Positions 13,807 to 23,088 of a DNA stretch of 64,000 nt are shown piece after piece. The translations under genes were made by a program, and so were the position numbers. Under the pieces are notes generated by a model. The model saw only the letters and a list, made by a program, of their open reading frames with translations, did no database searches and was not told the DNA's origin. This DNA is from Methanolobus vulcani (GTDB lineage: Archaea > Halobacteriota > Methanosarcinia > Methanosarcinales > Methanosarcinaceae), in the NCBI RefSeq assembly GCF_006546655.1, contig NZ_VIAQ01000017.1:1-64000 (forward strand), written 5' to 3'. The number at the start of each line of letters is the position of its first letter. The stretch's first letter is position 1.

Positions 13807-14091
13807 ATGGAAAATCCACGCTCAACTCCATTAGAGGAACTACTTGTCTGGATCCTCAGTGTTGACCGCCGTGTCATACTAATGGAGTCCATAGACTATC
13901 ATCAGGTGATCAAAGCATCTGATGTCGCACAGAAAACAAACAGATCAACTCAAAACATAAGCCGTGCCTTGACGGAACTCAAGAATAAAGGCATTATTAA
14001 ATGCCTTACACCTGAAAAAACGACCTGGAAAAGGTATATGTTAACAGATACAGGAATAAAGGTACGTCAAAAACTCCAACAGTACCACTGA
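13807..14091 (+). CDS. Winged-helix transcriptional regulator (paralogue 1 of 3)
   Basis: This 94-residue DNA-binding protein has one winged helix-turn-helix. The recognition helix region reads TNRSTQNISRALTELKNKGII, followed by a wing with LTPEKTTWKRYMLTDTG. It shares VDRR, KASDVAQ and PEKTTWKRY with the proteins at 15790 and 16615, so the three are paralogues. Signals, ligands and targets are unknown. It lacks the upstream small ORF found with the other two. A palindrome precedes it and a strong terminator follows. Confidence 0.85.
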   Translation: MENPRSTPLEELLVWILSVDRRVILMESIDYHQVIKASDVAQKTNRSTQNISRALTELKNKGIIKCLTPEKTTWKRYMLTDTGIKVRQKLQQYH

Positions 14092-15694: not shown

Positions 15695-15802
15695 ATGGAA
15701 GAAGCAGAAAATATCTTAAAAGGACCTAAATTAAGAATACGTCGAAAATTACAAGATAGTTACTGTACGCTGATAAAGGAGGAATATCTATGTTCCATAT
15801 GA
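15695..15802 (+). CDS. Conserved small ORF upstream of winged-helix gene, copy 1
   Basis: The 35-codon frame overlaps the start of the winged-helix gene by 13 nt. An AGGAG site lies 8 nt before its ATG. The peptide resembles that at 16511: both share a K-P-(K/E)-L-R core, then KL, (D/N)SYC, basic residues and a cysteine near the end. Conservation of frame and of the SYC motif suggests a translated product or a regulatory leader peptide. No family is recognised. Confidence 0.5.
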   Translation: MEEAENILKGPKLRIRRKLQDSYCTLIKEEYLCSI

Positions 15803-16119
15803 TGGGAGCGGTAAAGATGCCAGGACAACTTCAAAATGCTATGTCAGATGAGGAAATAATCTCCTGGGTACTCGGTGTTGACAGACGCATTGTAATTCTG
15901 GGGTCCATGAAGAACCATCCAATCCTTAAGGCATCCGATATTGCCCAGGAAACAAACAGGTCTACTCAGAATATAAGCCGTGCTCTTAAAGAGTTCAACG
16001 AAAAAGGGTTCATTATGTGTCTTAACCCTGAAAAAACAACCTGGAAAAGATATACAATTACTGCTGCTGGAAGAGAGTTGCTTCAAAAACTCGATGATGT
16101 TTATTTCGATCCAAATTAA
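15790..16119 (+). CDS. Winged-helix transcriptional regulator (paralogue 2 of 3)
   Basis: This 109-residue regulator has the same winged helix as its paralogues (TNRSTQNISRALKEFNEKGF, PEKTTWKRYTI). It is very similar to the protein at 16615 over its whole length, including MMGAV at the start. AAGGAGG precedes the ATG. The start lies inside the end of the upstream small ORF, which points to translational coupling. The ligand and targets are unknown. Confidence 0.85.
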   Translation: MFHMMGAVKMPGQLQNAMSDEEIISWVLGVDRRIVILGSMKNHPILKASDIAQETNRSTQNISRALKEFNEKGFIMCLNPEKTTWKRYTITAAGRELLQKLDDVYFDPN

Positions 16120-16510: not shown

Positions 16511-16612
16511 ATGAGAAAAACTGAAAGTATCATAAAAAAACCTGAGTTAAGAACGTGTCAAAAACTGAAAAATAGCTATTGTCAACAGAAAAAGGAGGGG
16601 TTGTTCTGTTAA
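16511..16612 (+). CDS. Conserved small ORF upstream of winged-helix gene, copy 2
   Basis: This 33-codon frame starts MRKTESIIKKPELR and ends in a cysteine. GGAG lies 9 nt before the ATG. It is the counterpart of the ORF at 15695. The winged-helix ATG follows its stop after 2 nt. Confidence 0.5.
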   Translation: MRKTESIIKKPELRTCQKLKNSYCQQKKEGLFC

Positions 16613-16614
16613 AG

Positions 16615-16926
16615 ATGATGGGAGCAGTCAATATGGAAAGAACTGCTGCGAACCACATGTCAGACGATGAATTAATCGCGTGGGTATTCAGTGTTGACAG
16701 GCGTATGGTTCTGGCTGAATCAATTAAGAATCATAAGATATTGAAAGCCTCTGACATAGCTCAGGAAACAGGCAGGTCTACACAGAATATAAGTCGGGCT
16801 CTTAAAGAGTTCAATGAAAAAGGATTTATCATGTGTCTCAATCCTGAAAAGACCACATGGAAAAGATACACAGTTACAAATGATGGAAGAAGCCTATTGA
16901 AAAAGATCGATAAGGTCTATCTTTAA
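16615..16926 (+). CDS. Winged-helix transcriptional regulator (paralogue 3 of 3)
   Basis: This 103-residue regulator is nearly the same as paralogue 2 (GRSTQNISRALKEFNEKGF, PEKTTWKRYTV). ATG 16615 was chosen by alignment to paralogue 2 (MMGAV); AAGGAGGGG lies about 14 nt upstream, and the frame stays open to 16579. It arose by tandem duplication of a unit of about 800 bp that includes the leader ORF and terminator. Confidence 0.85.
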   Translation: MMGAVNMERTAANHMSDDELIAWVFSVDRRMVLAESIKNHKILKASDIAQETGRSTQNISRALKEFNEKGFIMCLNPEKTTWKRYTVTNDGRSLLKKIDKVYL

Positions 16927-17031: not shown

Positions 17032-18756
17032 TCAGGCACTATCCGTAACCTCTTTGATATAGGGACCAAGAATCATGTCCTTGTAAGCTCCGCCTGCAGG
17101 AACCTTAGGATAGAGAACTTCTTCCCTGTCAGTGCAGATCTCAAGGAAACAAGGTCCTTCTGAATTAAGGAAAGCCTCCATTCCATCTTTCAAATCTTTT
17201 CTGTCAGTTATCCTTTCTGCAAAAGCAAAGCCGAATGATTCTGCAATTTCTGAAAAGTTAACGTCCTTTGGTCTCTGTGTTCCTGTCCTGACACCATCAT
17301 ATGCAGCATCCTGAAGGTTCTGTACCATTCCATCGATCCTGTTGTTGAGCATGAGTATTTTTATGGGCAGGTCCAGTGATGCGATTGTATGCAGTTCTCC
17401 AAGATTCATTCGCAAACTGCCATCGCCGTCTATTGCTATGACCCTTGCATCAGGATTTGCAAAATGGACACCTATGGATGTTGGCATGGAAAAACCCATT
17501 GTCCCAAAGGAACCGGATGTCATGAAGGATTTTGCTTTCTGCATTGGAAGATACTGGGCTGCAAGCATCTGGTGATTGCCGACACCTGTGGTTATCCTGG
17601 TGTTATCATCAATATAGTCTGACAGCATGGACATGACCTCAGCAGACTGGATAGATTCAGACTGACGATTGTAGTCCAGTGGCCAGGTCCTCTTTAGTTT
17701 TCTGGCACGTTCCTGCCATTCAGTGATATTCAATGTAATGTTATGCCTTTTAGCATAGTTGAGCAGGTCCATTACGGCAGTGGCTGCATCACCAATAAAT
17801 GTGAACTTTGGAGAACGTTCGATCTTTATCTGATGCATTTTCTCAGGATGGATATCAATATAAGCTACGTCAGTGCCAATCGCAAAACCGACTTTTTCAG
17901 CGACCCTGTCATCCCAGCGGACACCGATAGCAAAGAAGAAGTCGTTCTCCTGGATGAGCATATTGGCATAGGGTGTGCCGAACATCCCAAGCATTCCAAG
18001 GTTAAGGTCATTCCGGCCGTCAAGGACACCTTTTGCCATGAGCGTGTTGACTGCTGGTATTCTGAAATATTCGTTAAATTCGCGTATAGCATGGCTTCCG
18101 GCTTCGGAGTTGAGACCTCCTCCAAGATAGAGCAAGGGTTTTTTTGAGTTAAGGAACAACTGGAAGAATTCCTCGCACTGGTCGTCGCAGAGATGCCTGT
18201 CATCGTTGTAACTTTCTTCAAAACGCATGATGTTTATGTCATTGTATTCATGAGTCCTCAGTTGTTTGTTCAATGGGAAATCTATAACGACAGGTCCTGG
18301 TTTACCTGATTTTGCAAAGTAATAGGCATCTTTGACTATTGATTCGACATCGTCATCGCTTGATAGCAGAATGACCTTTTTGGAAGCTTCACCGAATACG
18401 CTCTCAACATTAATATGCTGGAAGGAGTCAGTACCTATCTTGTATTCAGGAACCTGCCCTGCAAAGACCAGCAGGGGAATGCTGTCACCATATGCATCGG
18501 CGACACTTGTGAGCGTGTTGGTGATTGCAGGTCCGGATGTGACTATTGCAACACCGACCTCGTTGCTTGATCTGGAGTAACCGGCTGCACTGAAGGCTGC
18601 TGACTGCTCGTTTGAATTGATAACTATTTCGATGTCACTCTTTTCAAGGGCATGGAATACCGGAAGTATTGCCGCTCCGGTATAACCGAATATTTGTTTG
18701 ACCCCGAGGTCCTCCAGACATTTTACTAATATTTCTGCTCCATTCATTTCTTCCAT
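17032..18756 (-). CDS. ilvB: Acetolactate synthase large subunit-like (ThDP enzyme)
   Basis: This thiamine diphosphate enzyme would join two pyruvates to 2-acetolactate, the first common step of valine and leucine synthesis. The catalytic glutamate is in NSNEQSAAFSAAGYSR, the ThDP motif is GDGSLRMNLGELHTIASLDLPIKILMLNN, and all three domains (PYR, central, PP) are present in 574 residues. ATG 18756 has GGAGA 7 nt upstream; the frame is open to 18816. No small regulatory subunit gene adjoins it, so another ThDP enzyme such as a pyruvate oxidase homologue is possible. A valine-rich leader ORF with a terminator-like hairpin directly upstream supports a role in branched-chain synthesis. Confidence 0.85.
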   Translation of the reverse strand: MEEMNGAEILVKCLEDLGVKQIFGYTGAAILPVFHALEKSDIEIVINSNEQSAAFSAAGYSRSSNEVGVAIVTSGPAITNTLTSVADAYGDSIPLLVFAGQVPEYKIGTDSFQHINVESVFGEASKKVILLSSDDDVESIVKDAYYFAKSGKPGPVVIDFPLNKQLRTHEYNDINIMRFEESYNDDRHLCDDQCEEFFQLFLNSKKPLLYLGGGLNSEAGSHAIREFNEYFRIPAVNTLMAKGVLDGRNDLNLGMLGMFGTPYANMLIQENDFFFAIGVRWDDRVAEKVGFAIGTDVAYIDIHPEKMHQIKIERSPKFTFIGDAATAVMDLLNYAKRHNITLNITEWQERARKLKRTWPLDYNRQSESIQSAEVMSMLSDYIDDNTRITTGVGNHQMLAAQYLPMQKAKSFMTSGSFGTMGFSMPTSIGVHFANPDARVIAIDGDGSLRMNLGELHTIASLDLPIKILMLNNRIDGMVQNLQDAAYDGVRTGTQRPKDVNFSEIAESFGFAFAERITDRKDLKDGMEAFLNSEGPCFLEICTDREEVLYPKVPAGGAYKDMILGPYIKEVTDSA

Positions 18757-18814
18757 TTGAATTCTCCGTGAAGAAACGATTCCGGCACAGGATAGACTGA
18801 TCAGTAAAGTAACC

Positions 18815-18860
18815 AAAAACAGTGCACTTGAGCCAGAAAAGTTTCTTTTGTTAGCTCAAG
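18815..18860 (-). terminator. Attenuator-like hairpin before the acetolactate synthase gene
   Basis: On the minus strand CTTGAGC pairs with GCTCAAG. An inner AAAAG / CTTTT stem extends the hairpin, and GTTTTTG follows. The stop codon of the valine-rich leader ORF lies inside the left arm, and the structural gene starts about 58 nt after the T-run. A ribosome held on the valine codons would cover the left arm. See the leader ORF and the second copy at 22699. Confidence 0.6.
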
Positions 18861-18924
18861 CGTTTAGCACTACCACTACTACGGGCACTTCTACTAAGGT
18901 GTGAGTTGTGGTAGGGTTAGACAT
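18856..18924 (-). CDS. Valine-rich leader peptide upstream of acetolactate synthase
   Basis: This 22-codon ORF starts MSNPTTTHT and ends VPVVVVVLNA, with five consecutive valine codons, then a leucine codon, just before its stop. A TATA-like CTTAAGTATC (18946-18955) lies about 25 nt before the ATG, so the transcript is probably leaderless. The stop codon overlaps a hairpin followed by a U-tract, then the acetolactate synthase gene. This is the layout of the bacterial ilvB leader (ivbL). A diverged copy with the frame kept is at 22746-22820, which favours translation. Function by attenuation is an inference. Confidence 0.6.
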   Translation of the reverse strand: MSNPTTTHTLVEVPVVVVVLNA

Positions 18925-18945
18925 TAGGTTATGGTTGGTGGAAGT

Positions 18946-18955
18946 GATACTTAAG
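18946..18955 (-). promoter_or_regulatory. TATA box of the leader transcript
   Basis: CTTAAGTATC on the minus strand, within a block shared with the second copy (TCCAATAC, then CTTAAATAC at 22842-22851). The spacing to the leader ATG is about 25 nt in both. Confidence 0.5.
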
Positions 18956-19215
18956 GGTATTGGAGTTAATGATTAAGAAGCGTGTTTTTTCCTTGTCTCA
19001 ACTTTGTTATACACGTCCCTGGAAAACCTCAATGGTGTTTCATCTATATTGAGACTTTTCTTTCTCATCTCGATCAAACTACATCCATAATCACACTGGC
19101 ATGATACCAACGAATCTACCACTCATAAAAAAATATTGTAATATTTGGATTAAATTATTTTTTGTGAGAAGAAAAGGAAAGCGGCCTGGGAAAATGCCAC
19201 TTCCCACATTTAGAC

Positions 19216-22115: not shown

Positions 22116-22634
22116 TCACTGCTGGATTTCTTTAGCACCCATAACGGTTATCCAAAGTACCCAGATAAGTTCACCCATTGTGAAATAATCAACAAATGAT
22201 GGTACATATCCTATCAGGAAATATGAGACCGTTGCTCTTAAGTATCCTAATGATCCGACATATAATAGATATCCAATCCATTTTGGAAACATTCCTGATC
22301 TGATAACCAGCGTACCAATTGGTATAAGCCATAGTCCCCAGAAGACTTCTGCTAAGTGCATTGCTTCAGGCATGATTATTGCCATCAATGAGAAAGGTAT
22401 TCCTAAAAGACCGAATATGACTATCAGCGATGCCTGTTCCTTATCGGTATCCATGAATAATTTGTACAGCAATAACGCAACCACTATCTGAAACACCTGT
22501 ACAACAATCTGACCTAACTAACCAACTTTGAATAATGTAGATTCGCTGGCGAGTGTCGGTGCATATAACAATGAAAATATGCTTATGACAGTCCATACCG
22601 GATAAAGAATTCTAAGTTGGGTTATGGTCTTCAT
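22116..22634 (-). pseudogene. DUF4386-like membrane protein, interrupted by TAG
   Basis: This is a close copy of the intact gene at 25517-26035, with the same length of 519 nt. Codon CAG of the intact copy is TAG here (22518-22520), after TLFKVG. There are few other differences. A pseudogene is the simple reading. Because Methanosarcinaceae can decode UAG as pyrrolysine, read-through cannot be excluded from sequence alone. A leader peptide/hairpin unit lies just upstream. Confidence 0.75.
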
Positions 22635-22698: not shown

Positions 22699-22750
22699 GA
22701 AATAAAAACAGCGTACATGAGCCAGAAAAGTTTCGATAATCGTGCTCAAG
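22699..22750 (-). terminator. Attenuator-like hairpin, second copy
   Basis: TGAGC pairs with GCTCA, with an inner CGAT / ATCG stem, then GTTTTTATTT. It follows the valine-rich leader ORF copy and ends about 65 nt before the DUF4386 pseudogene start. Confidence 0.5.
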
Positions 22751-22820
22751 CGTTTAACACTACCACTACTAAGGACACGGGTACTAAAGTCACAGTGTGA
22801 GTTGTGATGGTGTTTGACAT
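22746..22820 (-). CDS. Valine/leucine-rich leader peptide, second copy
   Basis: This 24-codon ORF starts MSNTITTHT and ends LVVVVLNA. It differs from the copy at 18856 by substitutions and a 6-nt insertion, so the frame is kept. A TATA-like CTTAAATACC (22842-22851) again lies about 25 nt upstream. The downstream gene is a broken DUF4386 protein, not an amino-acid enzyme, so this copy may be a relic of a rearrangement. Confidence 0.5.
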   Translation of the reverse strand: MSNTITTHTVTLVPVSLVVVVLNA

Positions 22821-23088
22821 TAGCAGGAGATATTAGGCGAGGGTATTTAAGAGTATTGGAACTTAATCATTAAAAGATAGTTAATTTATTAAATTCTGAA
22901 AGATCTTTATTCAAATTCAGTTGTTTAAAAGTCTGTCATAACAGACCATATAATAAATGGTATAAATATATCAAACGTATAATTGTATATAGATTGTTTA
23001 ATCTGAATTTTGAAATTAAAGAACAGAGTGATATGAAATAAAGCTAGAAGATTTGAACACGCACATTATCTCAAAGGGAGATTAACGA

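Follow-up and report, generated by a model that had tools for sequence, protein, structure and literature searches.

A candidate valine-responsive leader-peptide attenuator before an orphan acetohydroxyacid-synthase-type gene in Methanosarcinaceae

The locus

The region analysed is a stretch of 64,000 nucleotides from a contig of the methane-making archaeon Methanolobus vulcani (the window, throughout), whose minus strand carries an ilvB-like gene. The encoded protein is a TPP enzyme that most resembles biosynthetic acetohydroxyacid synthase (AHAS), with a TIGR00118 score of 490.7 bits, below the cut-off of 538, and a match to the plant AHAS in the PDB at an E-value of 1e-107. Since the canonical ilvB in this genome reaches a far higher score with the profile (874 bits vs 490), the ilvB-like gene is regarded as a paralogue. 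The canonical ilvB adjoins a cimA/leuA-type gene, 3' of it; no leader was seen by eye before this cimA/leuA-ilvB operon, and no regulatory subunit was seen near the ilvB-like gene. The latter, though an orphan paralogue that falls below the profile cut-off, is placed in the valine pathway as a member of the AHAS family. A third ilvB-family gene (G000:C1:208382-209977; TIGR00118, 407 bits) is located directly 3' of an aldehyde-dehydrogenase-like ORF, and three similar small winged-helix (MarR-like) genes are clustered on the plus strand beyond the ilvB-like gene (13807-14091, 15790-16119 and 16579-16926). The features discussed below are the following, in window positions.

17032..18756, minus: ilvB-like gene, orphan AHAS-type catalytic subunit, 574 aa (profile and PDB matches)
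18764..18767, minus: Shine-Dalgarno GGAG of the ilvB-like gene, 3 nt 3' of C*
18771..18789, minus: segment C* (TGTGCC-GGAATC-GTTTCTT), rival partner of B* (covariation)
18815..18825, minus: GCACTG, a possible lower stem with Val codons V4-V5, followed by U5 at 18819-18815 (pairing and U-run counts)
18825..18833, minus: right arm GCTCAAGTG of hairpin A:B (direct reading and covariation)
18829..18847, minus: segment B* (AAGAAAC-TTTTCT-GGCTCA), its 3' part overlapping the right arm of A:B
18854..18862, minus: segment A, left arm CGCTTGAGC, containing the leader stop codon; pairs with B, with compensatory changes in L010 and L065
18856..18924, minus: putative leaderless leader-peptide ORF, 22 codons plus TGA, MSNPTTTHTLVEVPVVVVVLNA, intact in relatives
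18868..18882, minus: segment V, five tandem Val codons GTA GTA GTG GTA GTG (direct reading)
18908..18914, minus: segment 1 (CTACCAC, Thr codons), able to pair with the Val codons
18948..18954, minus: TATA box TTAAGTA, its first T 30 nt 5' of the leader ATG
22704..22873, minus: second, decaying promoter, leader (MSNTITTHTVTLVPVSLVVVVLNA) and hairpin before a DUF4386 gene, with no C* seen

Distribution of the leader unit

The initial annotation had described the leader and its hairpin in the window and had proposed looking for them before acetolactate synthase genes of related Methanosarcinaceae. This search has now been carried out on 112 genomes of the family. By protein comparison, 44 of them, from six genera, carry an ortholog of the ilvB-like gene (at least 67% identity), the other 68 having nothing closer than the canonical enzyme (33-38%). 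A covariance model built on the Val run and the hairpin gave 44 positive family genomes, besides one match in G048 (E 0.07) that was taken as chance. The leader ORF with its stop-holding hairpin is present in 44/44 genomes with the ortholog and in none of the 68 without it, a co-occurrence that lies beyond chance (Fisher p 3e-32, relatedness being ignored). The canonical ilvB of the same genomes gave no leader match. With the leader region as query, BLASTN found matches in almost all genomes of the genus, and the relatives that carry the leader include Methanolobus, Methanococcoides, Methanosarcina, Methanohalophilus and Methanohalobium. In one case (L127, G134:C88:12486-14341) the ilvB-like gene is a pseudogene with several stops, yet the leader and hairpin are intact.

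Outside the family, the unit was found in MAGs labelled Nanoarchaeota and Woesearchaeota and in archaeon ADurb.Bin336. All archaeal orthologs with a readable upstream region show a V-rich ORF whose last codons are GCT-TGA (GCT-TAA for ADurb.Bin336) together with the hairpin, and the bacterial homologs L060-L063 are without the unit. Leader ORF and hairpin are carried by four small-genome archaea, all DPANN MAGs, where they precede the ilvB-like gene on contigs L054, L057, L058 and L065. The neighbouring genes look archaeal (ribosomal protein S19e, DHH proteins), so that transfer is a likelier explanation than contamination. The remaining orders of the class, plasmids and a further 370 genomes from one DPANN phylum yielded no matches, and no Rfam family covers the leader, the two weak matches elsewhere in the scanned stretch being attributable to chance.

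In three Methanolobus genomes (the window, L071/G020 and L133/G025), a DUF4386 gene close to the ilvB-like gene is preceded by a decaying duplicate of the leader. These duplicates were considered as members of a regulon and set aside as relics: the start codon has changed from ATG to ATA in G020 and G025, and the copy in the window has an arm mismatch and lacks C*. The DUF4386 gene 3' of this second leader has an in-frame TAG at 22518-22520 (minus strand) where relatives have CAG (Gln), which may reflect read-through, the family being a pyrrolysine-using one, or may mark a pseudogene.

A probably leaderless ORF rich in valine codons

Direct reading places the leader ATG at 18924, the Val run at 18882-18868 and the TGA at 18858-18856, which bears out the 22-codon ORF with five Val codons of the initial annotation, and the peptide follows the pattern MSN…VPVVVVVLNA*. 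The TATA box begins 29-31 nt 5' of the leader ATG in 43 of 46 distinct leaders. This fixed spacing puts the predicted transcription start at or beside the ATG, and the ORF is therefore probably translated leaderless, in line with the earlier proposal. Leaders of 22, 23, 24, 25, 27 or 30 codons occur; they always differ by whole codons and never go out of frame. All relatives keep the frame and its richness in codons for Val and other BCAA, and the C-terminal end is rich in Val, Leu or Ile in every leader, the DPANN ones included. Val/Leu/Ile codons are retained even in lineages where the nucleotides differ. The leaders use GTA/GTG rather than GTT/GTC for valine (298 vs 19; 298/317), as compared with 137 vs 186 (137/323) in eleven genes of the window, a bias for which RNA pairing may account in part.

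No synonymous/non-synonymous signal of purifying selection on the peptide was detected. Its N-terminal half shows 30 non-synonymous against 7 synonymous changes (expected 59:22), and such freedom to change is what is expected of a leader peptide with a dispensable product. The same figures weigh against the view that the ORF encodes a small functional protein, for example a membrane protein, that stands before ilvB by chance. The peptide is hydrophobic, and M. mazei is known to translate hundreds of small ORFs (PMC11456600), both in keeping with such a view; this ORF, however, is strictly tied in cis to the ilvB-like gene and overlaps an RNA switch, which makes an independent function barely plausible.

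Two mutually exclusive helices

The hairpin CGCTTGAGC/GCTCAAGTG, with the leader TGA in its left arm, is seen in the window and kept in the relatives. Its arms are paired in 99% of cells and tend to change jointly (L010, ADurb.Bin336). The inner AAAAG/CTTTT stem of the initial annotation is not conserved, being replaced by loops such as AAGATAATCGAAAC, and was rejected as a part of the device. The U5 run at the foot of the hairpin, 58 nt from the ilvB-like ATG (18756), held up in part: at least four U follow A:B in 48 of 52 sequences, but the run is missing in L020, L054 and L058, and a spacer of 7 nt separates it from the conserved stem unless a lower stem is added. This lower stem, formed by Val codons V4-V5 and GCGCUG just 5' of U5, is paired in 90.5% of cells, with double changes in four of its six pairs. 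Upstream, pairing of the Thr codons of segment 1 with the Val codons is stronger than in synonymous recodings over 11 lineages (combined z about -6.5), although the window taken singly shows it weakly (z -0.7).

The CTTGAGC/GCTCAAG hairpin and U5 had been taken as the whole device, which proved too narrow, as a further segment, just 5' of the ilvB Shine-Dalgarno, also pairs with the right arm and covaries with it. Segment B* consists of the loop and right arm of hairpin A:B, and its partner C* ends 0-7 nt 5' of that Shine-Dalgarno across species. The long B*:C* hairpin first emerged in single-species folds when arm A was masked, and RNAalifold predicts it unprompted on an alignment of 28 sequences. 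Its cells are paired at 94.2%, against 89.4±0.7 in shuffles, and 18 of them carry double changes, against 4.5±1.8 after shuffling (0/500 shuffles); slid versions pair at merely 38-63%. The covariation also holds in a test with two more pairs. Examples of B*/C* are TGAAAAAATCA/TGATTTTTTCA in Methanohalobium, AAAGAAATTA/TAATTTCTTT in Methanohalophilus, CCGGCTCA/TGGGCCGG in L054 and GGCTCAAGTG/CATTTGAGCC in L058. From the end of the C core to the ilvB AUG there are 28 nt at the median and about 28 nt in most species, and at least four consecutive U follow C* in just 13 of 52 sequences.

As judged from sequence, segment A with its stop codon, B* and C* are laid out as in a classical two-state attenuator, the two structures being mutually exclusive because they share B*. 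Full-length equilibrium folds of several species prefer B*:C* even without a ribosome. Predicted accessibility of the Shine-Dalgarno averages 0.77 with A:B and 0.65 with A masked, a difference that depends on the species and is small in Methanolobus. Sequestration of the Shine-Dalgarno through pairing of C* with ilvB codons 2-9 was also considered; the pairing appears in folds but does not exceed that of synonymous recodings (mean z +0.4), so this candidate was dropped.

The nucleotide sequence is strongly conserved and several helices covary, one of them involving the ORF, as could also be expected of an untranslated, riboswitch-like RNA in which the ORF is incidental. Against this, the ORF is intact, its length changes are in frame only, its ATG is fixed at the predicted transcription start, the Val/Leu/Ile codons persist where nucleotides differ, and Rfam offers no match; a riboswitch-like RNA is therefore very unlikely.

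Ribosome position and the sign of the proposed switch

A conserved Val-rich leader, probably leaderless, a stop codon placed in the arm of a hairpin and an AHAS-family gene downstream together make ribosome-mediated attenuation the most likely kind of control, as had been proposed from the window. As A and C* compete for B*, the position of the ribosome would decide which structure forms. This was modelled by placing the leading edge of the ribosome 15 nt past the P-site. In the window, the A:B stem is worth -20.3 kcal/mol when complete, -16.8 with V1, V2 or V3 in the A-site, -12.4 with V4 and -8.4 with V5; from the codon after V5 to the stop only about -2 kcal/mol remains and B*:C* takes over. 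The model thus predicts that stalls at V1-V3 keep A:B, and that ribosomes from V5 through the stop give B*:C* with a mean P of about 0.7-0.8. The earlier idea that pausing on the Val codons would place the ribosome over the left arm fares poorly, given that only positions from V5 onward, or the stop, remove the stem.

In classical attenuators, helix 2:3 can form when the ribosome is starved, and 3:4 when it has reached the stop codon. The layout obtained with the position model is the same, which favours the sign in which starvation leads to A:B and expression. Given also the strict co-occurrence of leader and ortholog, the frame-keeping ORF lengths, the fixed TATA spacing, the Val codon bias, the covariation of both helices and the on average higher predicted Shine-Dalgarno accessibility with A:B, the locus is tentatively interpreted as a ribosome-mediated, valine-responsive attenuator of the orphan AHAS-type gene, ON through A:B under starvation and OFF through B*:C* when valine is replete. 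Transcription would start at the leader ATG and the leader would be read leaderless, B* pairing with either A or C* and never with both. With Val-tRNA scarce, the ribosome would wait on the first Val codons and leave A free, so that A:B* keeps B* off C* and ilvB is expressed. With valine ample, the ribosome would reach the stop codon and mask A, allowing the long B*:C* hairpin to form against the ilvB ribosome-binding site and a U-rich stretch. Expression would then be lowered either by a block of initiation or by transcription termination through loss of coupling. The position of the U run, after A:B rather than after C* in most sequences, counts against this reading, as do the species whose folds prefer B*:C* with no ribosome present, the small difference in Shine-Dalgarno accessibility in Methanolobus and the lack of a synonymous/non-synonymous signal in the peptide. 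Archaeal termination works on U tracts with no hairpin required, and binding of aCPSF1 needs at least two U4 tracts (PMC8716108), a need of which the U runs after C* fall short, so that B*:C* would be a poor terminator in most species.

The opposite polarity, favoured in the initial annotation, would make A:B, extended by the Val codons and abutting U5, an OFF terminator that a ribosome slow on the Val run, above all at V4-V5, prevents from forming, with B*:C* as the ON state. It gains from the frequency of U runs after A:B, from the covariation of the lower stem immediately 5' of U5, from the fall of the modelled stem energy to -8.4 kcal/mol at V5, and from the constant distance between C* and the AUG, which suits a B*:C* hairpin that presents an open Shine-Dalgarno. 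It is weakened by the stable stem left by V1-V3 stalls and by archaeal termination needing no hairpin, which leaves hairpin control of U5 conjectural. The U run is absent from the three sequences named above, C* pairs with the ilvB start no more strongly than in recodings, and no site in the archaeal unit passes a simple consensus scan for terminators. This polarity is accordingly regarded as doubtful.

A different cause of stalling would be arrest by the nascent chain, in which the hydrophobic Val-rich peptide halts the ribosome near the stop in response to a metabolite and so selects B*:C*. All leaders share a hydrophobic C-terminus ending in Ala-stop, and in the model A:B is lost only with the ribosome at the very end of the ORF, both of which would fit. 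The last residues vary, however (NA, HA, SA, FA, VA, PSA, SSA), pairing of arm A at the RNA level accounts for the Ala-stop codons, and the residues bear no purifying signal, so that arrest of this type is considered improbable.

Relation to known attenuators

In bacteria, leader-peptide attenuation is textbook knowledge and depends on tight coupling of transcription and translation. In ivbL of the E. coli ilvBN operon and in trpL, the run of regulatory codons lies about 20 nt before the segment masked by the ribosome at the stop. The archaeal unit recalls the trpL geometry, V1 being 20 nt 5' of A, and likewise has a shared middle segment that pairs alternatively; the E. coli systems differ in their bacterial RNA polymerase, intrinsic terminators, leaders with a ribosome-binding site of their own and proven termination output. 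In translational attenuators of the ermC type, the position of the ribosome in the leader ORF rearranges helices beside the downstream Shine-Dalgarno, as is proposed for the archaeal unit. There, however, the stall is drug-induced and the Shine-Dalgarno takes part in the pairing, something that the predictions for the archaeal unit do not show consistently.

The nearest system in design is the ilvBNC attenuator of C. glutamicum (ilvB-II motif), where the Val-containing leader (MTIIRLVVVTARRLP) of an AHAS gene is translated with no ribosome-binding site, and where terminator and antiterminator share a boundary trinucleotide (PMC11857589, PMC10272879), comparable to the alternative hairpins that share one strand in the archaeal unit. 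The C. glutamicum device is bacterial, controls an operon with a regulatory subunit and ilvC, and has an intrinsic terminator demonstrated by mutants (PMC11857589, PMC10272879); in the archaeal unit no comparable terminator is seen in most species, and the gene that it would control is an orphan paralogue. The ilvB-OMG and ilvB RNA motifs of bacteria, including Leptospira, similarly combine a BCAA- and Thr-rich uORF with a predicted structure 5' of ilvB, but belong to other organisms and models and are known from prediction (PMC10272879).

Of the unannotated small ORFs in M. mazei, ribosome profiling assigned about 10% to 5' UTRs, where they may be uORFs (PMC11456600). A search of the open-access literature turned up no account of an archaeal leader-peptide attenuator, and a review of archaeal transcription-translation coupling does not mention attenuation. 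On balance, we consider it slightly more probable than not that the unit is the first leader-peptide attenuator in Archaea, one that would combine a leaderless Val-codon sensor with an output specific to archaea, either control at the ribosome-binding site or FttA/aCPSF1 termination that depends on coupling, in place of a bacterial intrinsic terminator. The unit is complete also in DPANN archaea, which likely acquired it by horizontal transfer. If so, archaeal ribosomes would serve as amino-acid sensors, and the locus would offer a natural setting in which to probe coupling, as well as FttA-dependent or translational control, in vivo, open to direct testing in culturable Methanosarcina and Methanolobus species. 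It would also suggest that the same Val-run device before ilvB was invented independently, or else transferred.
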